Source: a virus
Reading direction: 5' to 3' (one strand)
DNA length: 48,644 bases
IMG/VR virus record: IMGVR_UViG_3300018420_000026
Coordinates: 1-48,644 of that record
Shown in pieces: positions 8,532-46,107 of this stretch (the stretch's first letter is position 1; the number at the start of each line of letters is the position of its first letter). The notes under the pieces were generated by a model. The model was not told where the DNA came from, did no database searches, and was given only the letters and a program-made list of their open reading frames with translations. The translations under genes were made by a program, and so were the position numbers.

Positions 8532-10289
8532 ATGGCAAAGATAGCACCGTACACAAAACTCGACTTTACGGATATTAAAGATAATCTAATTGCACATCTA
8601 AGTAATCAAGAAGAGTTTAAAGGTTATGATTTCCTCGGCACTAATATGAATGTATTGGTTGACGTAATGGCATATAATGCGTATCATAATATGCAGTATT
8701 ATAATATGACACTAGGGGAAACATTTTTAGATTCCGCTGTACTGAAAAACAGTATTATATCTCATGCAAAAGAATTAAATTATTTACCACGTAGTAAAAG
8801 AAGTGCGGGTTCATTGTTAAATATCGAAATAACATCAAGCCAGGCACAAGGTAATAATACATTTGTTATACCTCGTGGTCATTCATTCTTAGGTAGATGT
8901 GGTAATATATCATATAGTTTCATTACTACAAAAGCGCATATCGCTACACGAGTGGGTAATTCAAACGTATTTGCCGTGAATAATGTTGCGGTATTTGAAG
9001 GTCGTAATATTACCGAAGTGTTAGATTATCAAAATACAACATTAAGTAATTCATCGATTGACACTCGTTCAGTACGTGTATTTGTGAATGGTGATGAGTT
9101 TGTATATAAGACAGGTATATTCGGTGTTGAACAAAATGATAAAGTATTTTATTTACAACCAGAATTAAATGATAGATACTCTATACAATTTGGGCAAACT
9201 TTATTTGGGTATCAACCAACCGCAACGGATAATATAGAAGTTACCTATCGTGTAACCAGTGGGACTCAAGCCAATGGTGTGAAGTCATTTACCACGAACT
9301 CAGGTGGATTGAATGCATCATCAGTTGTTGTGACTCCTGTTGGATTATCCGTAGGCGGCGCAGATGCTGAATCAATTGAATCGGTGAAAGAGTTTGCCCC
9401 GAAAGCATTTCAGGTTCAGGATCGTGCTGTGACTGCCAACGATTATGAAGTGTTGCTTAAGACACAGTTTCCCGAGATTGAAAATATCTCTGTGTTTGGT
9501 GGCGATGAAGCAACGCCTCCTCAATACGGTCGTGTGATTGTTGTTGTTGATGTACAAGGTCGTGATGGTGCTGCTGATACTGAATTAGCATTATATAAAG
9601 ATTATATTAAGAGTAAGAGTCCATTAACGATTGAACCTATCTTCCAAGAAGCACAATTCATATATGGTAAGACAGATATTAATGTAACTTATTCACGTAA
9701 CAATTCATTATCAAGTGCCGGCGCCTTAGAAGCACTCGTTCGAGATGCGCTTGCTACGTATTCAGAAGATAATTTAAATACGTTCGCTTCGACATTAAGT
9801 TTATCTGATCTGAGTTATGCATTGTCGTTGAGCGATGATTCAATAACATCCATATCTGTTTCATTGGATCCCGTGATTGATTACAAACCTGTATTGTCTG
9901 TATTGGCAAGTCCTACATTTAGTTTCGGGCAACAATTAATTAAACCATATCCATATAATGAAGAAAATGGATTGGTTGATTATAAACCTGCAGTAACATC
10001 CACACAGTTTACTATTGATAATACACTGGTTCAATTACAGGATGATGGTAAAGGTGTAGTACAAGCAGTTGTTGCAAATGATCCATTACGATCTGTATTT
10101 AGAAATAGTTTAGGAACCATCGATTATACAACAGGACAGATTGTATTGAAGGACTTTATGGTATCAAGTTTTGAAGGAGCGTCAATACAGATTAGTGTGA
10201 AACCATTATCAAGAGATTTCACGGCGCCTAAAGATCGTATCTTTAGATTAAGACAAACTGACGTATCAGTTACAACAAGGGCAGTATAA
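8532..10289 (+). CDS. gp6: Baseplate wedge subunit gp6 (J-like)
   Basis: The 585-residue product (T4 gp6 has 660) begins with the conserved gp6 region: LDFTDIKDNLIAHL, then GYDFLGTNMNVLVDVMAYNA, then YYNMTLGETFLDSAVLKNSI and HAKELNYLPRSKRS. The middle has the J-protein-like segment EFAPKAFQVQDRAVTANDYE (about residues 288-308) followed by FPEIENISVFGGDE. gp6 forms the inner ring of the baseplate and ties neighbouring wedges together. Its stop overlaps the gp7 start by one base (TAATG), so translation is likely coupled. No unusual features were seen. Confidence 0.92.
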   Translation: MAKIAPYTKLDFTDIKDNLIAHLSNQEEFKGYDFLGTNMNVLVDVMAYNAYHNMQYYNMTLGETFLDSAVLKNSIISHAKELNYLPRSKRSAGSLLNIEITSSQAQGNNTFVIPRGHSFLGRCGNISYSFITTKAHIATRVGNSNVFAVNNVAVFEGRNITEVLDYQNTTLSNSSIDTRSVRVFVNGDEFVYKTGIFGVEQNDKVFYLQPELNDRYSIQFGQTLFGYQPTATDNIEVTYRVTSGTQANGVKSFTTNSGGLNASSVVVTPVGLSVGGADAESIESVKEFAPKAFQVQDRAVTANDYEVLLKTQFPEIENISVFGGDEATPPQYGRVIVVVDVQGRDGAADTELALYKDYIKSKSPLTIEPIFQEAQFIYGKTDINVTYSRNNSLSSAGALEALVRDALATYSEDNLNTFASTLSLSDLSYALSLSDDSITSISVSLDPVIDYKPVLSVLASPTFSFGQQLIKPYPYNEENGLVDYKPAVTSTQFTIDNTLVQLQDDGKGVVQAVVANDPLRSVFRNSLGTIDYTTGQIVLKDFMVSSFEGASIQISVKPLSRDFTAPKDRIFRLRQTDVSVTTRAV

Positions 10290-14074: not shown

Positions 14075-15925
14075 ATGGCAAAGGTTGTAACTGAAAATTT
14101 TAGGATCGAAACATCAAACGAGTTCGTCAAATCGTTCGAGGATATGGCGAGCAATGATTATTATATCATGGGATCATCCTATTCAAAGAACAACACTATT
14201 TCTAATAGTCAAAAGGAAATACGGGATTTTGAGCGCAGGGTTATTTTTGGTAACAGAATAACCACAGACGATGTTAGATATATGTTTAACATAAAACCAT
14301 GGTCGACAGGCACTGTGTATGACTCGTTTGACGATACACAAGATATGAGCACTAAAAACTTTTATGTTACTGTTCTTGATGGACCTATCAACGAAACATC
14401 ATATAAAGTTTTCAAATGCATTCGAAATAATAACGGTGCGGCATCGACACAAGAACCATCAACAACTCAAGAGTCAGTAAACTTTGAAACCACAGTTAGT
14501 GATGGATATATTTGGAAATACTTATTTTCTGTTCCTCCTGCAGAATATATATTGTTCGGAACAAACACACTGTTGCCATACGTTAAAAATGACTTAACCA
14601 TCTCGAATGCTCAGCAAGGAATAAGTGATATATTGATTGAAGCAGTCCCTGGTGGCGCATTTAGTTCATATATAACATCGCCCGGAGATGATCCGTCTGC
14701 CGTGACTATAAAACAAGTACAAACAATATCATCAAACAGATTCCAGGTCACTGTAACTGCGCTGAATGAACCGAAGTCAACAGTTGATACATATAGAGGA
14801 TTATATCTCCGCACAAGTAATTCTAATGTGTATGACATAGTTAATAGTAATAGCCCTGCATTTGCCGGAACTGACAATCGTGACATTGAATTAACTATTT
14901 CTGTTGATGGCATTTCTGATGCTGCGGCATTTATTAATTCATTACTCGGAAAGCAAGCACAACTGTTGCCTAAAATTGAAATATCTGCACCTAATGTTGA
15001 GACGGGTACACAGGCAATTGCGTATGGAGTTGTAAACTCTCAAGGTGAATTGGTTGATATAAAATTTAACACTAAAGGCAGCGGGTATTTTTACGCAGAG
15101 GCAACAATAATTCAACCAGGTGTATTGGCATCACAGGCATTGCCTGATTCAACACTTCGTGTTATTTGCTCTCCAGAAGGCGGACACGGATCAGATCCTG
15201 TACATGAATTGTTTATGAGTAGGGTGTCAACTGTAACAACATTTATCAGCGACATAACAACAAACACTCCTGATACAAATACATACACTAAGATTGGTGT
15301 TGTGAAAAATCCTCTGTTTCAGGTTATTGGGACATCAAATATTGTTGCGACATCCAAATACAGAATAACAAATTTGGGAGTAGGCGATCAACAATCTAAT
15401 TGGAACACTGCGGCAGGAACAACAGGTGTTGAATATGTTGTCGGGTCAGTATTTGTTGCATCGCAACCTGTGCAAACTGATGGCGGACAAGTTATGCCGT
15501 TACCAGAAACATTTGATAACAGAGAGCGACTACAGATTGATAATCAAGTATTAACAGATACTGCAGTTGTTGATGTTGGGTTTTATGTGTCTCAGACAAA
15601 TGCTGCAGGAGAAACTGCCTCTGGTATCATTCATGAAGTTAAAACTGTTGATACTACAGGTAACGGTATTGATGATTCTACAATATTATATTTAGTTGAT
15701 ACTGAAAGCACAGGGAGTAAAGGATTTGAAGTTGATGCCGTTGTTCCTGTCATAATTAAAGAAACAAAAGAATCTGTTAGTAGTACATATGTAGCATTAA
15801 TAAATAGTGTTACACAAGAATTATATCAACCATATTCAGGTGAATTGTTGCACTTTGTTGATTTTGATCCTATCACAAGAAACAATACATCTAAAGAAAA
15901 AGTAAAACTTATTTTCGACTTCTAA
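14075..15925 (+). CDS. gp8: Baseplate wedge subunit gp8, enlarged
   Basis: The 616-residue product is nearly twice the size of T4 gp8 (334) but keeps its landmarks. These are an N-terminal FRIETSNEFVKSFEDMASND, the RVIFGNRITTDDVRYMF region, YKVFKCIRNNNGAAS, the hallmark SDGYIWKYLFSVPPAEYILF (T4: GDGYVWEYLFEIPP) and a C-terminal KLIFDF matching the end of T4 gp8. gp8 dimers bind gp7 in each wedge. The extra length lies between about residues 190 and 560. It contains a GxGY repeat (VDIKFNTKGSGYFYAE, near 330) and one copy of a module shared with gp7 and a fibre protein (SKYRITNLGVGDQQSNWNTA, about 425-465). An exact late promoter precedes the gene. Confidence 0.88.
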   Translation: MAKVVTENFRIETSNEFVKSFEDMASNDYYIMGSSYSKNNTISNSQKEIRDFERRVIFGNRITTDDVRYMFNIKPWSTGTVYDSFDDTQDMSTKNFYVTVLDGPINETSYKVFKCIRNNNGAASTQEPSTTQESVNFETTVSDGYIWKYLFSVPPAEYILFGTNTLLPYVKNDLTISNAQQGISDILIEAVPGGAFSSYITSPGDDPSAVTIKQVQTISSNRFQVTVTALNEPKSTVDTYRGLYLRTSNSNVYDIVNSNSPAFAGTDNRDIELTISVDGISDAAAFINSLLGKQAQLLPKIEISAPNVETGTQAIAYGVVNSQGELVDIKFNTKGSGYFYAEATIIQPGVLASQALPDSTLRVICSPEGGHGSDPVHELFMSRVSTVTTFISDITTNTPDTNTYTKIGVVKNPLFQVIGTSNIVATSKYRITNLGVGDQQSNWNTAAGTTGVEYVVGSVFVASQPVQTDGGQVMPLPETFDNRERLQIDNQVLTDTAVVDVGFYVSQTNAAGETASGIIHEVKTVDTTGNGIDDSTILYLVDTESTGSKGFEVDAVVPVIIKETKESVSSTYVALINSVTQELYQPYSGELLHFVDFDPITRNNTSKEKVKLIFDF

Positions 15926-21447: not shown

Positions 21448-21644
21448 TGGATGCTAATAACTTTAAAAGGACTGAAACATCAGCATTAGTGAATACTGAT
21501 GTGAGTGCATATAAAACTGCTAAGTTAAGAAATGCGAAAGAGCAAAAATTCAATCAATTAATCGAAAAGGTTGACAAATTAGAACAGTGTGTTGACAATT
21601 TAAAATCAAGAATAGAAGAGATAGAAAAAAATGGCAATAGATAG
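21444..21644 (+). CDS. Small coiled-coil protein of unknown function
   Basis: A 66-residue product with start overlapping the stop of the 1834-residue gene (ATGA) and end overlapping the next gene by 14 bases. Residues about 35-62 form a heptad-like coiled coil (FNQLIEKVDKLEQCVDNLKS, then RIEEIEK). Both overlaps suggest it is really translated, coupled to its neighbours. The ATG at 21447 is an alternative start one codon later. A role as an assembly chaperone or trimerising element for the fibre encoded next, as small coiled-coil proteins serve in other phages, is a guess. Confidence 0.7.
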   Translation: MMDANNFKRTETSALVNTDVSAYKTAKLRNAKEQKFNQLIEKVDKLEQCVDNLKSRIEEIEKNGNR

Positions 21645-23157
21645 TATTACTAATGTAGACGCAAGTTACACGTTTCAGCAGTGGTGGACAACCACTAATG
21701 AAATTATTAACAAATTGAATAATGTTGTCACGATGGAACCAAGTGATGCTCCTAATGCAGATGATGTCATTCTTGCAGGTTCATTAAAGACAACCGATGC
21801 AGTTGACGGTGTGATGACGAACGTGTTAAAAGCTGCTTCGGGAAATGAATTAAATGTGGACCATACTATTGTTAAGTTTGCACAGCAACAAATAATTTAT
21901 GTTCCTACATCAGGAAAATCTGACACCATTCAATTCACCAAAGCAGGAACTCCTGCAGGTGACTTTACTGATAACACTTGGTCGCTGGGTCCTGTTGATG
22001 CAAGCGGTAGCGGCATTTCGCAACATGCTGATTTCCAAATCACAGGCATAAATGGTTCAGGTAATGTTCTAGACAATGATGCTTTATTCACATTCAGAAG
22101 ATCAAATGGCAATACTAAAGGTAAGATCACAGGAACATTCATAGAAATTGATAACGCAATTCTTCCTGCACAAATAAACAAAAATTGTGCAACTGCAACA
22201 AAATTTTCTGATGATACAGTTATTAATTTCGGTGGTGCGAGTGGTGCTGTTGCGCAAGGTGATGGTCATGTTTCAGGTCAGATTACATTCCATGGTGGCG
22301 AAGGTTCTGCTATTGATGCAGAGTTAGCTGTTGATTTTAGCAGTATACGAGGCGTACAGGATTTACAAGCAGGAAGTGGATTAACAATTGTATCACAACA
22401 TATAGATGGCGTGAGCAATGATGGTAATACATTAGGCGGCAACTATCCTACGGGAACAATGTCACACGCAAATACTAGCGATGTTGCTGATAGTGAAAAT
22501 ACTGGAAACAATGTAATTCAAGATTTAACATTTGATGAGTTTGGTCATGTAGCATCAGTAGGAATTGTTGATCTTGCAAATACACTAGTTAAAGTGAATC
22601 CTAGCACAAACGCTAGTCGAAGCAAAGTATCAAACAAAGGTATTCTGTTTGATTCAGGTACTTATCTCAGTTTCAAAAAGCAATCATCAGCGACCACTGC
22701 TGACGAAGTAAAACTATACACTAGTTCGAATACATTTAATATAGATAGCGGCGGGCATACTGAAATTAAATTAGTGGCTGACGAGCAAGTTATCATTGCA
22801 AGCGACACAGGTAATCAATTTAAATTTGATACGGAATTCGGTGCTTTAACTTGTGAGGGTGATATTACTGCATTTGGTAATGCATCTGATAGATCATTAA
22901 AAGAAAACATCGAACCTATTACTGATGCGCTCGATAAAGTTAATTCAATTAACGGATACACATTTAATTATATTGATGCTCCAGAAAAGGGAAGAGTGCC
23001 AGGTGTCATTGCACAAGAGCTAGAGATAGTGTTACCCGAAGCTGTTTATGAGATTGATGACGGTAAAAAAGCAGTTAGGTATGATAATACCATTGCGTTA
23101 CTTGTTGAGGCAATCAAAGAATTGAAACAGCAGGTTGACGAACTAAAGGGAAAGTAA
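21631..23157 (+). CDS. Tail fibre protein with C-terminal S74 self-cleaving chaperone domain
   Basis: The 508-residue product has a short N-terminal region (SITNVDASYTFQQWWTTTNE), a beta-rich middle, and a C-terminal Peptidase_S74 intramolecular chaperone from about residue 418. The chaperone reads ASDRSLKENIEPITDALDKV, then GYTFNYIDAPEKGRVPGVIA and QELEIVLPEAV. It ends in a coiled coil (LLVEAIKELKQQVDEL). In this family the domain drives trimer folding and then cuts itself off with a Ser-Lys dyad five residues apart. S419 and K424 have exactly that spacing, so cleavage before S419 would leave a mature fibre of about 418 residues. The N-terminus probably docks on the baseplate or a larger fibre. 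It overlaps the coiled-coil gene by 14 bases. Confidence 0.85.
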   Translation: MAIDSITNVDASYTFQQWWTTTNEIINKLNNVVTMEPSDAPNADDVILAGSLKTTDAVDGVMTNVLKAASGNELNVDHTIVKFAQQQIIYVPTSGKSDTIQFTKAGTPAGDFTDNTWSLGPVDASGSGISQHADFQITGINGSGNVLDNDALFTFRRSNGNTKGKITGTFIEIDNAILPAQINKNCATATKFSDDTVINFGGASGAVAQGDGHVSGQITFHGGEGSAIDAELAVDFSSIRGVQDLQAGSGLTIVSQHIDGVSNDGNTLGGNYPTGTMSHANTSDVADSENTGNNVIQDLTFDEFGHVASVGIVDLANTLVKVNPSTNASRSKVSNKGILFDSGTYLSFKKQSSATTADEVKLYTSSNTFNIDSGGHTEIKLVADEQVIIASDTGNQFKFDTEFGALTCEGDITAFGNASDRSLKENIEPITDALDKVNSINGYTFNYIDAPEKGRVPGVIAQELEIVLPEAVYEIDDGKKAVRYDNTIALLVEAIKELKQQVDELKGK

Positions 23158-36800: not shown

Positions 36801-37637
36801 GATGCTCCTGTTGTCTCAGAAAAACGATTGGGTCGTGCAGAGGTTGGTGTTGATAATCAAGGTACGGGATATGTGTATGTTACTACACCTGCTGTTGAAT
36901 CATTACCTGATAACACTACTATTATCACAGCATATGTTAAGAAGGCATATCCTGGAGTCCCTGACCCAGACACGCCAACTACAGGATTGATTGCTGTTGC
37001 CACAGCCGCAGGTTCGATAGATGCGAAGATCATAACACTTTCTGATGACAATAAATTGTCTCTTGCTGATTCTTATCAAAACTTTACTATCTCTGAGGTT
37101 TATGATTTCAATTCTCAACCATTATATCTATTCTTTGCAATGAGAGCAAATTCACGAATAAATAATATTATTGTTGAAGAAATATCTGAAACTACTACTA
37201 CTACACATGTTCCTAATTTTATAGGACTTGCGGGAACTGGTACTGAAAATCAAGCAGGCACTTTGTTTACAAGTGTTGGTTCCGAGTTTAACGTGCCTAA
37301 TAAACAAACGTCCAATGCAATTGTAGTCAAAGATGTTCAAACTAACTCAGATAGAGCACCTTCAAATTTTATAAGTAATGATTACTTATCAGGTGTTAAA
37401 TTTGATACACAAACTGATTTGCCGCTTGCTGACGGAGAAGATGTTTATTCTTTCTACATAGGAGGAGATGAGGCGATTGATTTTGGATTAGAAAATATAT
37501 TCAATATTGACAGGTTGACATTGACTCCCGGATTGTATAATAACAATGCTTTATATTTTAAAGCAACTCCTGTTGCAGCAACAGGTCCTGATTCTAATGT
37601 TAATGTTCAGATGACTATTACATGTAAGGAGCAGTAA
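33897..37637 (+). CDS. Large tail fibre/structural protein, second of a tandem paralogous pair
   Basis: The 1246-residue product repeats the landmark series of its neighbour: SEVSSTLLGVTRAEEQLSLF then ADVSTYGLDPDNW, KTFRYQPGRVSGFTFGLRVK, YKIEFSWYGAIGAKFYAYVP, VGNGDCRWILLHTWIIENKL and YKYGSSYYIDGGDEGN. Outside these blocks the two proteins differ, most of all in the C-terminal third, which is the likely variable part. The shared blocks are probably scaffold or attachment regions, and the differing parts may set what each protein binds; this is inference. The stop overlaps the next start by one base (TAATG). Confidence 0.8.
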   Translation: MPRQVKIGFDKTPAPISKSYHQLVDLQGTPLTDAAGNPLVTEDNARDLAFTVASNSLPAVVGNKVKKEAIPVTEVFANESEVSSTLLGVTRAEEQLSLFADVSTYGLDPDNWNYYTVGNGKIPAAWYNRKHPIFKKRGFAEFHEETNEQALYLSSFPVQYTFPDHPNNVQDTVQASSTFGKYIRFLALGRWLYEVWAPVNLRFAEDNFLNDCIRIVDVENEPYVFDKYSAQSQNDNFDFVGTDSFRNVRYGNTATGFSTQDAMDQIEKWTLFYFKIRSDTDTYPLFTLDNGVQIPFKTDVQTGNPLIRQYIGEYQAIQKYATQDYTQPGGNPSNFTVGVLESRKTFRYQPGRVSGFTFGLRVKNNPREQSDKIEWGCANDTDQYMFQVTGSQFNIVQRSTIKIPDAVLEDPEGMNLNPADDFRTPFEDQEFNELTGTRQEPAQPPGNDKSEKMYSVVVPRSKWNGDALDGQGPSGYIIDLVNVTMYKIEFSWYGAIGAKFYAYVPVGNGDCRWILLHTWIIENKLEKPALKAADFKFRYVISNKNTGGIVEPAYIYKYGSSYYIDGGDEGNITLSGTTSDTRTFSSTNLRGSVIALHTKTRITNSFGYDPDNKAYNGILNNKKVYPITLAGISDKNVRVDITKVKVSPDGHHGTKSVSLISSDRFDKPVNVRFNNRNQIYYVESEQNPDVSDTNILTPLDANAKLIGPGMVGIYSVPIEGETDIASVGRRRKGEGNNYSIAIDPEYITVGESVTISGDLDGDGLAETVDISDGLDNNVFAAHLSGYRTIVPSDTPITANRFKIHFLNPRPIDPRSPNTSAADFAIGVTPDVPTEFTEIDGDDVIGNLKFGTSKRVYPKDPSDLTVYDDTDNFFDPQKELFVEWSRNWTAFDLATGADLREVQSGNGSRLEQDYRIRGSELPFNGTKGVLSCVQGRVETLSYDIDSVDTDLTNAPAGIIADARIIFQSLDAPVVSEKRLGRAEVGVDNQGTGYVYVTTPAVESLPDNTTIITAYVKKAYPGVPDPDTPTTGLIAVATAAGSIDAKIITLSDDNKLSLADSYQNFTISEVYDFNSQPLYLFFAMRANSRINNIIVEEISETTTTTHVPNFIGLAGTGTENQAGTLFTSVGSEFNVPNKQTSNAIVVKDVQTNSDRAPSNFISNDYLSGVKFDTQTDLPLADGEDVYSFYIGGDEAIDFGLENIFNIDRLTLTPGLYNNNALYFKATPVAATGPDSNVNVQMTITCKEQ

Positions 37638-40600
37638 TGTCTATTTTTATTGGGTTAAATGTCAGTAACTACCTTAGTGATGTAGCTGACCAACCTACGG
37701 CCTTAAGAAACATTAACTTGAATAGAGCTGACCTTGATCACATTCGAGGATTACAATCTTCAGGTCTAACAAGAGATGGATTACACAATTTATCTGGGTT
37801 AAATGTTGATCAGGAAAAACAAAACTTTGCAAATGCGGCTGGTGCCGAAGTCGTAACTAGAGAACTTTTAGACACACCTACATTGCTTGATGATTCAAAC
37901 TTTAATATAAGGTTAGATAATCAACTACTTGCAGGTGCAATAAAGTACAACTATTTTGATTATGCATCGATTAATAGTTCAACAGGTGAACCTACTCTAA
38001 AAAGTGCAGACATTTCTACCAGTCGTGTATCATCTTGGTCGCAAATTGGTACCGGACCTATTTTTTATGGTGCTGACACAGTAATTAAGGGTGATGCAAA
38101 TAATGAATCTGTTATTGATCTAGAAAATATTGTTTTTACGGGAGAATTGTCTGCGAAAAGATTTAGCGCAGAAGTCCCAACCCACAAAATTACTGTAGAC
38201 GTGAATGGGCAAGATAGAGAGCTATTCACAATGAGAAATATTCCCTTTAGGTTTGAAGGAAATTTCAATGAGGCTCAAATTTCTCTGACCACAAATAGTA
38301 ATCCAACTGACCTTGCAACTATTGCGCCGACCGTTTTGTTTATAAATCAATCACTACCTGATGATAATCCATTTAAAGAGTATCCTGTAACACCTGCAAT
38401 TCCTAGAACGTCAAGTACAAACACTATTGAATATAATGTTGGCGCACAAGCAGCGGACGTATTCATTGATATATATTATAATCCGCAAAAGATTGAACGA
38501 TTATGGCTTAATTTTGGAAATCCAAAGTCATTGAGAATTAGAGAGTTTCCTAATGTCGAAATGAAGGAGTTGGTAAGCTTGGCCATTGAAAATAATCTTT
38601 TTCCCGAAATGCCGAACCTTTTTAAAATTACAGGCGGCAATGATCCCTCACATACTACTAATGTGTTATACTCTGTGTTTGCTGGCGGAAATCCGTTTAG
38701 CACCTCGGGAGTGAGTGCTCAGAATCAACTTAAAAATTATATTCCTGCTAGCTTGGGACATCTTAATGTAGACGGATGTTTTGTGGATTCAACTCCAATA
38801 GATATCAGAACCTTAAAGGCTAGTGGCACGGGTTTATACGTGCCTGCCGGTCTTCAACTCTTTAGTTGCGGTACTAGGGGCACTGGCGGATCAAATGCTA
38901 TTAGAACATTCGTTTCAACAAGAACAACAAACAGTGTTTCTCCCATACTTAACGGCAATTCGCTGACGTCTTATTATGTATCCAGTCAAAAGTTCAAATA
39001 TCTTCCTTGGGATATTACACATGATTCATTTGATGGTAACGACAACGCTATTACAAATGGTCCCCTTAATAACCTTACCACATTAAGTATTAGTAATAAT
39101 GACATGGTGGGCCAATTGACCGCCAGTAACGATCCTGCCGATGGTTTTACTGCAATACAGGTTCCTGATTCAATAGTAAACATTAAAGTTAGAGGCAACG
39201 AACTTGAAGCAATAAATTGTAGTGGAAAGGCGAATCTTGTACAATATGATCACGATTCAAACTTCGGGTTTGCAAATCCTTCTGGCGGAATTGACGGGTA
39301 TTTTAATGGTTGTACTTCCCTTGAAGAGTTATCTTTTCAACAATCATATGTTACAGCAAACATTGACAATTTATTTTCGGGATTACCTTCATTAACAAGA
39401 GTGAAGTTTAGCGACACTCGTTTACAGAACAGAATGTCAAGTACTAGTTTTGTAGGCACGACTAACTTAGCATCTTTCGTAGTGACTGAAGGCAACTTTA
39501 CTAGCGCTCCAGGCGCAACTAATTTCTTCGGCAATGATTTTGTATTGCCGGCTGCATCACCTCCTGTGGGTGGTGCTGGTCAACCTTATGAGGGTGGATA
39601 TTTTGTAGGAACAATAACACCTCCAGGTGGACAAGCATATCATTTAATTGTTGCTGATGAAAATGATTACGAAGGCTATGATCCTAGATTTATAGATATG
39701 CAAGACGTAGGCAGTGTTGGTAATCCGGACTTTTTGGATGGCGAAACAAATCACGGCGCTGAATATGCTGCTGGTGTTGACTATCTTGCAGCTTACAACA
39801 TTAAGCCGCCGGGAATGGGCTCAATTAACGGATACTCTGATTGGTACATACCGTCTAGAGATGAGCTTGAATTAATTTATCGAACCTTCAAGCCTACTAC
39901 AGATGCAAACGCAATAGTAACTGCATCAGGAAGTAATAACCCAGCATCAAACACTATGGTTAATGGGTTTACTGGTCCGTATACAACTACAACACCTGGT
40001 CAAACAAATTTAGTTAGTTATAGAGGAACAGGAAATCAGGCATTTCATGCATTTGATAATGTTGACGGATCCACTTCTGCTGAAATTCTTGCTAATCCTA
40101 ATTTTACAAACGCCACAAATCATTTTAGCACCCTACAAAATGGCACCACCCCTAACGGTGTGAATCCCACTATATCAGGAAACAGGTTGGTGGTATCAGC
40201 GCCTAGAACTGTAGTTGATTCAGTGCTGTACAGCAGTGGCGCCACTGAAATGGCCGGATTTACTTCGTTAATATTAAGAGACGGCCAGGATCAATATGTT
40301 CTTAGCAAAGGTAGTTATGATTTAGAAATAGAATTTGCAGAAGTCAAATTAGCAGAAGTCGATGCGGGAGATTTCGTATCAGGGGCGTATTATAAGATTT
40401 TAGATTTAGGATCAACACCTGCATTTAATAATATTGACTTTTCTGATTTCAATCAGGGTAGCAACACGATTACTTTAGGGGCTGGTCATGGATTGACGAC
40501 AGGCACAATTGTATCATATTCAGAAGATGGCAATGTCGTAGACGGATTCGCTAATTTGACATCAGGTTCAAATTATCGAGTTCTAAACCCAACTAGTACA

Positions 40601-42289
40601 ACAATTCAATTGCAACCATTAGGGTTTGGAACGGCAATTAATATTGCGCAATCACCAGATCAAACATTTACTTTTGATTTAACAAGCGGCGATGGCAATA
40701 ATTATAATTTCGGAACACCAAGAAATGACAGAACCGGAACGATTGCTGACACCACTGATCCGACCATTCAAATTTATTCGGGCGATACTATTACGTTCGA
40801 TAATAATACTGGAGGACATGTTTTACAACTTGAGGATAGCTCGGGTAATGTTATTGCAACAGAAAGTAATGGAGAGTTGACATATAACTTTACTACTGCA
40901 GGAACATATTATTATCAGTGTGTTAGTCACTCTAGTATGAGAGGGCAAATTACTGTAACCGCAAGATCAGGAACTTTTGACATTGTGGTTGATAGGGCAG
41001 CAAACTGGCAACATGCAGGAGCATCAAATGTTAATGTCGGTCAAACCTTTGAGGCGACTAGTTCAGGAATCGGCATTTACAGCGGAAAGGGTAATGTGAT
41101 TGCGCATTTAGGCGGGTCACTCAAAAAAGTTGGTGGTGCTCCTGGCAACCCCAGCGCAGATTCAATTTTAGATGAAGTTGTCGTGTATGCATGGACTAGA
41201 AAAATAAATAATTCTGCAGGCGGAAGACATTTCTTTATTCAGCAAGGGTTGACCAATTCGCCAACAACGCATAAGGCTACTATTCATGTTCCTGACGGCG
41301 ACATTAATGGCGTAGACCTGGTAATAGCAAGTACTAATGTTGATTATAAGATTAATAGAATTTCTCTTAAAAGACAGGTTGGGGTGTATTGGTCATCAAC
41401 CGAAGGTCTTAATACGGTGCAGTCAGTTTCGAATGTTGGCACAGTGCCTTCCACTTCTAACAACACAATCAACAAAGTTACAGGTATGGCACAAAATTTC
41501 AGAACTGGTGAACAGGTTGAGTTGATTAAGAACGCTGTTTGTAATGTAAGACCTGTGAGAAAAGTTTATGTTACTGGCGGAACATCAATAGAGTTAGAAG
41601 GGACTTCAGACATATTCCAACCCTGTGGAAATAGTTTACATACCTTTACTATGACCGGATCTGGTAAAGAAGTCAGCACAGGATTCAACATTCGTGGAAA
41701 AATGCCTAGCACTAATTACCTGAATTTGATGCTCTTTTTTACATTAACAGGAACACAAATTTCAGGACAAATGCCTCAATTCTCAAATGCGAATTACATA
41801 ACAAAGATACAAATGTTTGATAATATGCTTGAAGGCGCATTTACGTTCGACAGTGGCACAGTTACTGAGATAAATGTACAAAATAATGAATTTACAAGCG
41901 CATCAGTAATTCGTTGCGAAAAGTTAAGTATCTTGAATTTAGCAGATAATAATATAGGTGGAGTATTCCCAGATATGTCAGTGTGCGCAAAACTGTCTAA
42001 ACTGTATTTGCAGAATAACAACATTGTAGAATATCAGCTCGGGTCATTATCTACTAATACAAACATAACAAATGTTGACTTATCAAATAATAATTTAACT
42101 ACTGGCGCAGTTAAAAGATTATTACAAGATTTATGGGATAATTTTTTGTTAAAGCCCGCCGGCCGTATTAGTCCTCAAATAAATATTTCGAGTATACCCG
42201 GAGTTAGGTATTCATTATTTGACTCACAAACAAAACAATTGTATAATGATTTGCAAGCAGAAGAATGGTCAATAAGTGTTGACTCATAA
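37637..42289 (+). CDS. Mosaic adhesin: leucine-rich repeats, split DUF1566 (C-type-lectin-like) domain, cupredoxin domain
   Basis: The 1550-residue product is a mosaic. Residues 4-30 hold an N-terminal motif shared with the next two fibre genes. Residues about 290-620 are irregular leucine-rich repeats (LTTLSISNNDMVGQL; LEELSFQQSYVTANI). A DUF1566/Lcl_C domain follows: YEGGYFVGTITPPGGQAYHL, GYSDWYIPSRDELELIYRTF (D735-W736), and then, about 500 residues later, VGVYWSSTEG (Y1251) and VCNVRPVRKVYV. Between these halves lie a CBM-like segment, two shuffled modules (about 908-1015), a cupredoxin-like domain (about 1035-1112; H1061, C1095, H1098, M1101) and another beta domain. The C-terminus has clear repeats (LSILNLADNNIGGVFPDM; LSKLYLQNNNI; ITNVDLSNNNLTTGAV). 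It is probably a receptor-binding protein. Confidence 0.82.
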   Translation: MSIFIGLNVSNYLSDVADQPTALRNINLNRADLDHIRGLQSSGLTRDGLHNLSGLNVDQEKQNFANAAGAEVVTRELLDTPTLLDDSNFNIRLDNQLLAGAIKYNYFDYASINSSTGEPTLKSADISTSRVSSWSQIGTGPIFYGADTVIKGDANNESVIDLENIVFTGELSAKRFSAEVPTHKITVDVNGQDRELFTMRNIPFRFEGNFNEAQISLTTNSNPTDLATIAPTVLFINQSLPDDNPFKEYPVTPAIPRTSSTNTIEYNVGAQAADVFIDIYYNPQKIERLWLNFGNPKSLRIREFPNVEMKELVSLAIENNLFPEMPNLFKITGGNDPSHTTNVLYSVFAGGNPFSTSGVSAQNQLKNYIPASLGHLNVDGCFVDSTPIDIRTLKASGTGLYVPAGLQLFSCGTRGTGGSNAIRTFVSTRTTNSVSPILNGNSLTSYYVSSQKFKYLPWDITHDSFDGNDNAITNGPLNNLTTLSISNNDMVGQLTASNDPADGFTAIQVPDSIVNIKVRGNELEAINCSGKANLVQYDHDSNFGFANPSGGIDGYFNGCTSLEELSFQQSYVTANIDNLFSGLPSLTRVKFSDTRLQNRMSSTSFVGTTNLASFVVTEGNFTSAPGATNFFGNDFVLPAASPPVGGAGQPYEGGYFVGTITPPGGQAYHLIVADENDYEGYDPRFIDMQDVGSVGNPDFLDGETNHGAEYAAGVDYLAAYNIKPPGMGSINGYSDWYIPSRDELELIYRTFKPTTDANAIVTASGSNNPASNTMVNGFTGPYTTTTPGQTNLVSYRGTGNQAFHAFDNVDGSTSAEILANPNFTNATNHFSTLQNGTTPNGVNPTISGNRLVVSAPRTVVDSVLYSSGATEMAGFTSLILRDGQDQYVLSKGSYDLEIEFAEVKLAEVDAGDFVSGAYYKILDLGSTPAFNNIDFSDFNQGSNTITLGAGHGLTTGTIVSYSEDGNVVDGFANLTSGSNYRVLNPTSTTIQLQPLGFGTAINIAQSPDQTFTFDLTSGDGNNYNFGTPRNDRTGTIADTTDPTIQIYSGDTITFDNNTGGHVLQLEDSSGNVIATESNGELTYNFTTAGTYYYQCVSHSSMRGQITVTARSGTFDIVVDRAANWQHAGASNVNVGQTFEATSSGIGIYSGKGNVIAHLGGSLKKVGGAPGNPSADSILDEVVVYAWTRKINNSAGGRHFFIQQGLTNSPTTHKATIHVPDGDINGVDLVIASTNVDYKINRISLKRQVGVYWSSTEGLNTVQSVSNVGTVPSTSNNTINKVTGMAQNFRTGEQVELIKNAVCNVRPVRKVYVTGGTSIELEGTSDIFQPCGNSLHTFTMTGSGKEVSTGFNIRGKMPSTNYLNLMLFFTLTGTQISGQMPQFSNANYITKIQMFDNMLEGAFTFDSGTVTEINVQNNEFTSASVIRCEKLSILNLADNNIGGVFPDMSVCAKLSKLYLQNNNIVEYQLGSLSTNTNITNVDLSNNNLTTGAVKRLLQDLWDNFLLKPAGRISPQINISSIPGVRYSLFDSQTKQLYNDLQAEEWSISVDS

Positions 42290-43527: not shown

Positions 43528-46107
43528 TTAACTAAACACCGCCCAATATTTAGGACCGCCATTGGGCGTTTTAATTAGTAACCCGCCGTTAGCATCAGTT
43601 GCTGTTGTAATTTCAGTAGATGTTGCATCTTCAAACACAATTCCAGTAATCGAAAAATCGCCGCCGACTGATAACGCAGGAAATGCAGGTGGCGTTTCTA
43701 ATCCATTATCAGTCCCTTCAAATGGAGGTGCCGTGTTTAGCGGCATCACACACAATTCTTTATCTGAAGATGTTTTAACACCACCTGATCCTGGGTCATT
43801 AGCACTATTGATGAAAATAACTGTTCTTGCTGCGGGTATTGTTGTGTCTAAATTGTAAGGGGTGGGGGGGTTGGTTGTACCTGTCTGTTTTAATTCGATT
43901 ATATTATCGGTACCCGCATTAATTATGTCAACAACTTGAGCACCATTACCAGCATCTGCTCCAGCGCCTTCTGTGTCATTTTGAATGCCGCCAAAGTATT
44001 GTACGTAATCACCTATTGATATTCCTTCTACTGTAGTTAATGCAAGATATGGTTGCCCAGCAGTATTTGCTGTTGGGTATCCTGCGGGAGGAGATGCAAC
44101 TTCTCTTCCTATAACACCTACGCATTGAGATATAGTAGAATTATCTGTCAACCCACGATGTGCATAAATTAGTGTATACGCATATTGACTTGCCACTCGT
44201 GTTTGTGTTTTCAAACCCGTACACGTTATTTCAACATCATGTGAACTGGGATTCTTATCTATAGTTGTTATTCTGTCAAATACTTGAGGGTTTGTTGATC
44301 CGTCAGGATCTAGAGTAACGACAAGATCGCCGAGCTTTATATCATCTTTAAAAAAGTCAGTTTCCGCCCTAGTTGAGAATTGATCTGAAACATTTGCAAT
44401 ATTTCTAAGATTTACTGTAATAGGGTTTGAGGTACTTGTATTTGTTGCGCTCATGTTCTGATAGATGCCGACAAGTCCCGTAGCTTTAATCAAGTACGCA
44501 TCAAACATTATACCCGTCCCGATACCATACTCTGCAAGCACACTAGATACGGTTTCATCAAGTTTAAATTTATCTACAGTGATTGAAAGTTGATCATTTT
44601 CACCATCTGTCAATGACACATCTGTGACTTGTAAAAAATATTGCTTATTGTCACTATTCAAATCATTAGAATCATTGAAGCAAAATAATATATAATCTCC
44701 TTTTTCGACATTAGATTCTGGATACCCGCCATTATATGCAAATTGGTTAGCCCCACTATGGAAAATTTGTATCGGTTGCACCCTACCACCGTTTAATTTT
44801 TTCGATATATTATCAACTTCATGCTCAGGCGTATACCTAATGTAAGTGGGCATTTGATTTAAATAATATTGCCCCGTTCTTTTATTTCTGCGATTTATAA
44901 CATTTCTTTCAAAATGCTCATATGAATTTTGAGGAGGATTATCGCCGATTATACTTTCACGATTTTGTTTATACCAATGATTAAACGGCAGTCCTCGATC
45001 TGATTCAGCGATGACAGTGTCCATATCAGCACGCATACCGAAAGGCGGGAATTTTGCTCTTGATTTCGCAGGGATAAACTGATCAGGTTTGGGATACCAA
45101 ACAGTCATTCTGATTTTTTGCGTTTCACCTCTTGACATTCTATCTGTAAAAGTAGTTCGATATGTTAATGCATCTTCGCCTAAACTAAAAGAAAAATTCA
45201 TTGTATCGCCAGATGAAGTAGCTGCTAAAGCAGTTGTACCCTGTATAGGCTCAGCGCTGAATATGAATGAGTTTCCACTAACTTGGCCAGAACTAACGTA
45301 ATGTGTAGGATCAGAACCTAATCCGTCTGGCCCCTTTATGAGCATACCATCTAATATGTGTATACCATCAGATTTACTAATCGAATGTACGGAACCGACT
45401 GATGCAGCATTGATTGTGGCGTCAAATGATTCTTGTGTGACACATTTTTCAGGTAAGTAAACACCTGTATTTTGTCCTATATCTTTTTCAAATAAGAAAA
45501 AAGAATTCATTCTAATTATACCCGGTCTGCTTCTAGGATTTGAAAAATGTCCTTCCCAAGTGATTCCTCCAAATGAGTCATTAAATGATGGATGAAACCT
45601 TGAACTGAATCCGAATAACCCATCAATCCAATATTCATCTGTAATCACGTTACTCGGATATGATGCATCATAAATATCGTTTGGTTCAATAAGGCCTGTC
45701 AAAGTAGCAGCCGTAGAGGTCAATGCCTCTCCCGAGAACACTGTTGCTGTTGGACCTGACCCACCAAGAACATAAGGAGGATCTCCTACTACAATTCTAT
45801 CGTTGACTAATTTATCTATAACTCTAATTCTTGGTTGAATGTCTATTGGTGCACCGACAACAATTTGTCCATCATTGCCTAAAGTTAACGGGCTGTAAAC
45901 ATTTGTAGAATCATGTATTTCAGCAAGATCTTGAGCCCATACGTCTGTTTGACCTAATCCATTAATTACGGTTAAGTCACCGGGTATGAAAGGTTGGCTC
46001 GGTATTAAGTCATCTAGTATATTAGCTAGTCCGAGTTGCTCATCAGGCAAATCGTTTAGACTCTTATCTGCTCTTAAACCAATTCTTATATATTTAGATA
46101 CAGCCAT
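43528..46107 (-). CDS. Isolated minus-strand tail fibre-like protein, 859 residues
   Basis: This is the only minus-strand gene after gp4. The N-terminus (IRIGLRADKSLNDLPDEQLG, then LANILDDL) matches the attachment-type motif of the two genes before it in the window, and the short C-terminal end (GGPKYWAVFS) is of a kind seen at fibre ends. The middle is beta-rich, with landmarks GITWEGHFSNPRSRPGIIRM, YYLNQMPTYIRYTPEHEVDN and HRGLTDNSTISQCVGVIGRE. No catalytic motif was recognised. It starts at the ATG on 46107-46105 with AGAGGAAA upstream, and its own late-promoter box lies at 46150-46143. Convergence with the 401-residue gene, two bases apart, shows it is a separate transcription unit. It may be an alternative or additional receptor-binding protein. 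Confidence 0.78.
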   Translation of the reverse strand: MAVSKYIRIGLRADKSLNDLPDEQLGLANILDDLIPSQPFIPGDLTVINGLGQTDVWAQDLAEIHDSTNVYSPLTLGNDGQIVVGAPIDIQPRIRVIDKLVNDRIVVGDPPYVLGGSGPTATVFSGEALTSTAATLTGLIEPNDIYDASYPSNVITDEYWIDGLFGFSSRFHPSFNDSFGGITWEGHFSNPRSRPGIIRMNSFFLFEKDIGQNTGVYLPEKCVTQESFDATINAASVGSVHSISKSDGIHILDGMLIKGPDGLGSDPTHYVSSGQVSGNSFIFSAEPIQGTTALAATSSGDTMNFSFSLGEDALTYRTTFTDRMSRGETQKIRMTVWYPKPDQFIPAKSRAKFPPFGMRADMDTVIAESDRGLPFNHWYKQNRESIIGDNPPQNSYEHFERNVINRRNKRTGQYYLNQMPTYIRYTPEHEVDNISKKLNGGRVQPIQIFHSGANQFAYNGGYPESNVEKGDYILFCFNDSNDLNSDNKQYFLQVTDVSLTDGENDQLSITVDKFKLDETVSSVLAEYGIGTGIMFDAYLIKATGLVGIYQNMSATNTSTSNPITVNLRNIANVSDQFSTRAETDFFKDDIKLGDLVVTLDPDGSTNPQVFDRITTIDKNPSSHDVEITCTGLKTQTRVASQYAYTLIYAHRGLTDNSTISQCVGVIGREVASPPAGYPTANTAGQPYLALTTVEGISIGDYVQYFGGIQNDTEGAGADAGNGAQVVDIINAGTDNIIELKQTGTTNPPTPYNLDTTIPAARTVIFINSANDPGSGGVKTSSDKELCVMPLNTAPPFEGTDNGLETPPAFPALSVGGDFSITGIVFEDATSTEITTATDANGGLLIKTPNGGPKYWAVFS
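43540..43572 (+). terminator. Factor-independent terminator for the plus-strand fibre operon
   Basis: CGCCCAAT at 43540-43547 and ATTGGGCG at 43561-43568 form a perfect 8-pair stem round a 13-base loop, followed by TTTT. It lies 15 bases after the stop of the 401-residue gene, as expected for a plus-strand terminator. The same DNA encodes the last residues of the minus-strand gene, and on that strand no T-run follows the stem, so it should work in one direction only. Confidence 0.75.

Follow-up and report, generated by a model that had tools for sequence, protein, structure and literature searches.

Does the tail of a T4-like aquatic phage carry a working copper site? The question is raised by a stretch of 48,644 bases, an incomplete virus record that we refer to as the window. 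One of its predicted proteins, 1550 residues long, was described in a preliminary account, made from the sequence, as a phage tail adhesin that contains a cupredoxin domain (residues ~1035–1112) with all four copper ligands in place: H1061, C1095, H1098 and M1101. Here, we ask whether the fold and the ligands are those of a cupredoxin, how the ligands fare among relatives, and what such a domain might do on a virion.

Fold and ligands of the domain

The open reading frame at 37637–42289 carries IQIYSGDTITFDNNTGGHVL...GTYYYQCVSHSSMRGQITV, and its translation holds all four residues. The copper-ligand motif reads in the frame of this gene, and an aromatic triplet followed by C-x2-H-x2-M occurs only once in the window when all six frames are searched. 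The positions that matter are as follows.

37637..42289, plus strand: predicted tail adhesin of 1550 aa; an open reading frame with LRR-like segments, a split DUF1566/Lcl domain and an inserted block with the cupredoxin
about 40664..40963, plus strand: cupredoxin domain, residues ~1010–1109 (AlphaFold2, Foldseek, profile of phage relatives)
40817..40819, plus strand: H1061, predicted copper ligand, equivalent to amicyanin His53 (amicyanin alignment; invariant among relatives)
40919..40921, plus strand: C1095, predicted copper ligand, equivalent to amicyanin Cys92 (same alignment; invariant among relatives)
40928..40930, plus strand: H1098, predicted copper ligand, equivalent to amicyanin His95 (same alignment; invariant among relatives)
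40937..40939, plus strand: M1101, predicted axial copper ligand, equivalent to amicyanin Met98 (same alignment; invariant among relatives)

A search of PDB sequences with the domain matches amicyanin (E = 1.3e-4), and the four residues pair one-to-one with amicyanin positions 53, 92, 95 and 98, which are its copper ligands. The amicyanin-type spacing (C-2x-H-2x-M) and the complete ligand set that had been claimed are borne out by this alignment. The limits given for the domain need adjustment: the interval 40740–40972 covers the right DNA but starts out of frame, and the domain begins earlier than residue ~1035, with a first strand at about residue 1010.

Profile searches point to the Copper-bind and amicyanin families, in both cases below the curated cut-offs. 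The NCBIfam amicyanin model TIGR02657 scores the window copy at 20.1 bits (E = 6.5e-4) against an equivalog cut-off of 110.2, and Pfam PF00127 (Copper-bind) at 16.0–19.2 bits (E = 0.016) against a gathering cut-off of 21.2, a threshold that several relatives do pass (24.8, 24.0, 23.8, 26.8 and 25.7 bits). Against a profile of phage copies with the H, C, H, M set, which includes the window copy itself, the domain scores E = 5e-26; a search of the whole window with this profile gives no second significant match besides the cupredoxin domain. Independently, tblastn pairs the window domain with a marine phage copy at E = 9e-8. We rejected membership in amicyanin proper on the TIGR02657 score and because the domain is part of a 1550-residue protein rather than a free periplasmic one. 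The ligand loop of plastocyanin has the form C-x2-H-x4-M; this difference in spacing, along with a weak profile score here, led us to reject the plastocyanin type as well.

AlphaFold2, given residues 1010–1118 and 63 phage relatives, predicts a beta-barrel of 11 strands with high confidence (pLDDT 93, pTM 0.84). In the model, H1061 lies directly before a strand and C1095 at the end of the penultimate one, while H1098 and M1101 sit in the loop that follows; relative to the strands, the predicted placement of the ligands is that seen in cupredoxins. In the PDB, the top Foldseek match is a Nitrosopumilus cupredoxin, 5fc9 (E = 1.3e-5), with amicyanin at 4.6e-5 and a probability of 1.00. The best 50 PDB matches are all cupredoxins or proteins with cupredoxin domains, including plastocyanins, pseudoazurin, nitrite reductase and CuA domains. 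TM-scores of the window model to solved cupredoxins are moderate, at about 0.5; among viral models, cyanophage tail and baseplate proteins match best, with TM-scores of about 0.7–0.8. The predicted fold is thus a Greek-key barrel that many solved cupredoxins match with probability 1.00, and the first description, a cupredoxin domain with four ligand residues, holds.

The closest solved relatives work in other settings. Amicyanin (TIGR02657; PDB 1aac/2gb2) shares the fold, the C-x2-H-x2-M loop, the upstream His and the one-to-one ligands; unlike the window domain, which is part of a phage adhesin, it is a free periplasmic electron carrier, and its loop residues differ. The two compared proteins of Nitrosopumilus maritimus are an archaeal soluble cupredoxin, 5fc9, which is the best structural match, and a multicopper oxidase, 9cck, in which the cupredoxin is a C-terminal add-on.

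The protein and genes around the domain

The cupredoxin lies within a block that appears to split another domain, and the gene itself lies among those for T4-like structural proteins.

39542..40033, plus strand: first part of the DUF1566/Lcl domain, residues ~636–799 (blastp: Pseudomonas phage PMBT3, E = 6e-14; Medea1, E = 1e-13; DUF1566-type proteins)
40034..41377, plus strand: inserted block of ~450 aa with the cupredoxin (deduced from the split match to the continuous Medea1 protein)
41378..41572, plus strand: second part of the DUF1566/Lcl domain, residues ~1248–1312, YWSSTE...VRPVR (matches Medea1 residues 133–203)
8532..10289, plus strand: gp6-like baseplate wedge gene (phrog_219, E = 4e-131)
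14075..15925, plus strand: baseplate wedge subunit (phrog_438, E = 2e-56)
21631..23157, plus strand: tail-fibre protein (many PHROG tail-fibre families, best E = 8e-32)

The DUF1566 protein of Medea1, a Pseudomonas phage, is continuous and 206 aa long. Its first match covers residues 643–774 of the window protein, and its second, at 1248–1312, has E = 1e-3 with the full protein and 4e-5 with the segment alone. Since the Medea1 protein is continuous while the match to it is split, a block of ~450 residues would interrupt the DUF1566/Lcl domain. Pfam Lcl_C matches the window protein below its cut-off (E = 4e-4), and the second part, searched alone, gives no Pfam match; a sub-threshold 'Flavokinase' match on the C-terminal DUF1566 piece was dismissed. 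LRR-like segments at residues ~555–618 and ~1429–1487 (Pfam LRR_8, E = 2.7e-6; E = 2.3e-8 for the C-terminal piece alone) place leucine-rich repeats on both sides of the split domain and its cupredoxin insertion (39542–41572). The N-terminal domain PF07880 is not among the Pfam matches of the window protein.

The neighborhood is a T4-like structural cluster, with a tail tube cap gene, the gp6-like gene and further baseplate and fibre genes. Given the LRR and DUF1566/Lcl domains and this run of baseplate and tail-fibre genes, the name tail adhesin is plausible, as in the preliminary description; the presence of the protein in virions is a prediction, and one we regard as probable. The gp6-like protein has its nearest relatives in Sinorhizobium phages phiN3/phiM12 (37%) and also in Caulobacter phage Cr30, a kinship that hints at an alphaproteobacterial host and not a cyanobacterial one.

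Two other loci on the minus strand of the window are worth recording. At the left end (117–1006), a Staphylococcal-nuclease-like gene adjoins a gene resembling TnsA or phage endonuclease I. Within the structural cluster, 43528–46107 holds an opposite-strand open reading frame of 859 aa with no Pfam or PHROG match.

Ligand conservation and carriers of the domain

Among 20 aligned relatives, six columns are invariant: H, T, Y, C, H and M. A diverse set of 64 relatives reduces these to H, Y, C, H and M, the first His being invariant although it was absent from the search pattern. Scans of IMG/VR with DNA patterns gave at least 120 stretches each; such patterns fix either the C/H/M columns or the H column, so conservation is counted separately for each. 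Among the matches listed, copies picked via the C-terminal pattern retain the first His in 158 of the 159 with that column aligned, and CxxHxxM is kept in 109 of the 120 complete copies picked via the N-terminal pattern. Nineteen complete copies were picked by neither pattern. The full HCHM set is present in 14 of these; in QSGM, HSTL, DSTI and NSSF, two to four ligands are gone together, and HCYM alone shows a single loss. Further losses come from the N-terminal-pattern set: HSDV (three), HSST and HSNL, with no single loss among copies that have an alignable loop. In the small set of 19, conservation is higher at some fold positions, a Tyr and a Gly, than at the ligands; this is what one would expect if a minority of copies keep the fold after losing the site.

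These patterns bear on the strongest of the alternatives, namely that the barrel is a metal-free structural scaffold whose H, C, H and M are kept by packing or inheritance. Ligand-free phage copies of the same fold, such as HSDV, HSTL and NSSF, do suggest that the metal is dispensable, and the fold can evidently work without it. On the other hand, hardly any column besides the four ligands is invariant among relatives, and packing fails to explain why His, Cys, His and Met should be lost jointly. Loss that is largely joint is expected if these residues serve one site, and it suggests that a metal site is under selection, although the comparison is not a formal test, as some of the sequences are related to one another. 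We consider a pure scaffold unlikely and a functional metal site in this domain likely. The expectation that H, C, H and M would be conserved in phage homologues therefore holds in large part: they are near-invariant, ligand-free copies exist, and the losses are largely coupled. Similarly, the earlier argument that keeping all four ligands marks a metal-binding virion protein stands as regards their retention across homologues, while the virion location is a deduction.

Two groups of variants deserve separate mention. In one gp9-like protein (L008:1800-3098), the second His ligand is replaced by Tyr (HCYM), whereas near-identical relatives such as L004:1744-3042 have HCHM; either a natural mutation of the ligand or an error in sequencing may explain this. 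In addition, a phage subfamily (L165, L212, L220, L231, L243) has Cys, His and Met replaced (e.g., YYISQNDxxVSG) and is, as far as sequence can tell, a scaffold-only version of the cupredoxin fold.

The domain is widespread in marine phages. Neither this spread nor the occurrence of the domain in surface proteins of marine bacteria was foreseen in the preliminary account. With the window domain as query, tblastn matches 227 phage records when E is capped at 0.01 and 359 when it is capped at 10; Synechococcus and Prochlorococcus phages account for nearly all of them. A cyanophage copy as query matches 352 records at E ≤ 0.001. For scale, among 2325 T4-like records the gp6-like gene of the window matches 373 Synechococcus records and another 61 named 'Cyanophage'. 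Set against these counts, the domain is carried by most T4-like cyanophages and is missing from almost every T4-like phage with an enteric host. PF07880 (T4_gp9_10_N) was found in 15 of 15 aligned relatives, with the cupredoxin as their C-terminal domain. Marine cyanomyoviruses thus usually have the cupredoxin as the C-terminal domain of their gp9/10-like baseplate protein. These carriers are annotated as gp9/10-like baseplate protein or wedge-fibre connector, and the cupredoxin goes unmentioned in the records examined. The AlphaFold2 model of a whole gp9-like protein is poor (pLDDT 47). Tail fibres, and tail spikes with an S74 chaperone, also carry it, as do large hypothetical proteins in which it occurs twice. 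The window copy resembles those of cyanophage baseplate proteins and tail spikes (P-RSM4 gp9, P-SSM2 PSSM2_298, S-CAM4) in having the domain and its ligands in a tail structural protein; it differs in being internal, whereas the domain of cyanophage gp9 is usually C-terminal, and in its grouping with Bacteroidetes copies. Some copies (L014:3023-4252 and others) also give a weak match to the Pfam At5g54830-like domain, a family named after a plant protein, which suggests a wider, unrecognized relationship.

Cells carry the domain too. When one genome per species was scanned with the pattern, the motif was found in marine Flavobacteriia, other Bacteroidetes, PS1-clade alphaproteobacteria, SAR86, ammonia-oxidising archaea and others, and the best cellular copies match the phage profile at E = 1e-36. 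The carriers are large surface-type proteins with lipoprotein-type N-termini (judged by eye) and LRR, DUF285 or InlB repeats, or with cadherin and TSP_3 domains plus a T9SS sorting domain. The cupredoxin is often the last domain. Several proteins of marine Bacteroidetes (L296, L322, L324, L255) join LRR/DUF285 repeats to a C-terminal cupredoxin, a combination like the LRR and cupredoxin of the window protein. Taken together, the marine Bacteroidetes proteins resemble it in having a C-terminal or internal cupredoxin with LRR, DUF285, cadherin or InlB repeats, and differ in that they are predicted to be secreted or on the cell surface and do not belong to phages. In a tree of this short domain, the clade that holds the window copy consists mostly of Bacteroidetes copies, and within it the window copy groups with two from flavobacteria (local support 0.96). 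The tree hints weakly, the domain being short, that the window copy may have been acquired separately, from bacterial surface proteins.

What the site may do

We favor the view, with a probability of roughly 0.6, that residues ~1010–1109 form a complete amicyanin-type cupredoxin domain that serves as a metal-stabilized surface or attachment module of the tail. In this T4-like aquatic phage, the cupredoxin would be displayed on the insertion that splits the DUF1566/Lcl domain of the adhesin, a protein that also contains LRRs. One copper ion would be bound through H1061, C1095, H1098 and M1101, and the metal would tether the C-terminal ligand loop to the barrel. The exposed loop face would then contact proteins or surfaces, as part of the tail region that meets the host. 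The components of this proposal differ in strength. That cyanophage gp9 is present in virions is highly probable, and copper binding by the domain through the four ligands is nearly as probable. Virions are assembled in the cytoplasm, where copper is scarce and chaperoned, and this counts against a copper-loaded particle.

An electron-carrier role is less likely. In amicyanin the loop reads CTPHPFM, whereas the variable positions of the C-x2-H-x2-M loop here, around the exposed His, are mostly small and polar (Q/T, N/Y/S, S/A, S/G/A); this loop, together with the adhesin-like cellular relatives, argues against electron transfer. The same evidence weighs on the idea that a redox-active type 1 site senses the host surface, through its redox state or its periplasmic or outer electron carriers, and helps trigger tail contraction. 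The type 1 ligand set is complete, and the gp9/10-like baseplate protein of cyanophages, annotated as a wedge-fibre connector, would be a sensible place for a trigger. However, there is no known partner, the loop is without the Pro and Phe of amicyanin, and the cellular relatives do not resemble electron-transfer proteins. We regard such a trigger as improbable.

Type 1 copper sites are largely buried and exchange metal slowly, which counts against another proposal, that copper held by the tail is bait for a copper-uptake or copper-binding protein on the host surface. The domain is enriched in marine phages, and there is a precedent: iron is bound by HxH motifs in T4 gp37 and its marine relatives, and an iron Trojan-horse hypothesis has been put forward (PMC11705849). 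Those tail fibres are the nearest precedent for metal-binding motifs in a phage tail, but their iron is octahedral and held in a trimeric fibre, in contrast to the mononuclear copper site predicted here in a cupredoxin barrel. We give metal bait as little credence as the redox trigger. Redox sensing and recognition of a surface copper protein, two of the roles offered in the preliminary account, are thus speculative. Finally, the ligand type alone leaves metal and oxidation state unfixed, so that the site might hold a different soft metal, either Zn or copper as Cu(I) only, or act as a copper sink in the cell or lysate, outside the virion; as the top solved relatives are copper proteins and the carriers are structural rather than free soluble proteins, this is very improbable.

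A more far-reaching reading is that the virions of most marine T4-like cyanophages, and of other aquatic T4-like phages such as this one, are copper proteins, with several to dozens of type 1 sites each on baseplate and tail adhesins, and that they attach, or fire their tails, under the control of copper or redox state. At present we hold this to be unlikely.

Our search of the open-access literature for a cupredoxin or copper-binding domain in phage tails or virions returned no earlier report. Cyanophages do encode another cupredoxin, the plastocyanin PetE (PMC3037559), which is a stand-alone photosynthetic electron carrier (an auxiliary metabolic gene) and not a structural protein. In a comparative study of cyanobacterial myoviruses, phage plastocyanin figures only as a host-like photosynthesis gene and the word 'copper' is absent (PMC3037559). 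Both the fold and the site that we describe are known; their structural context is new, and they are unexpectedly widespread in it. If our reading is right, copper would be a virion cofactor in some of the most abundant phages of the ocean, and their adsorption and particle stability would be tied to the copper chemistry of seawater. The domain is well defined, and its role is testable in laboratory cyanophages. It is also a surface module common to the surface proteins of marine bacteria and the tails of phages.
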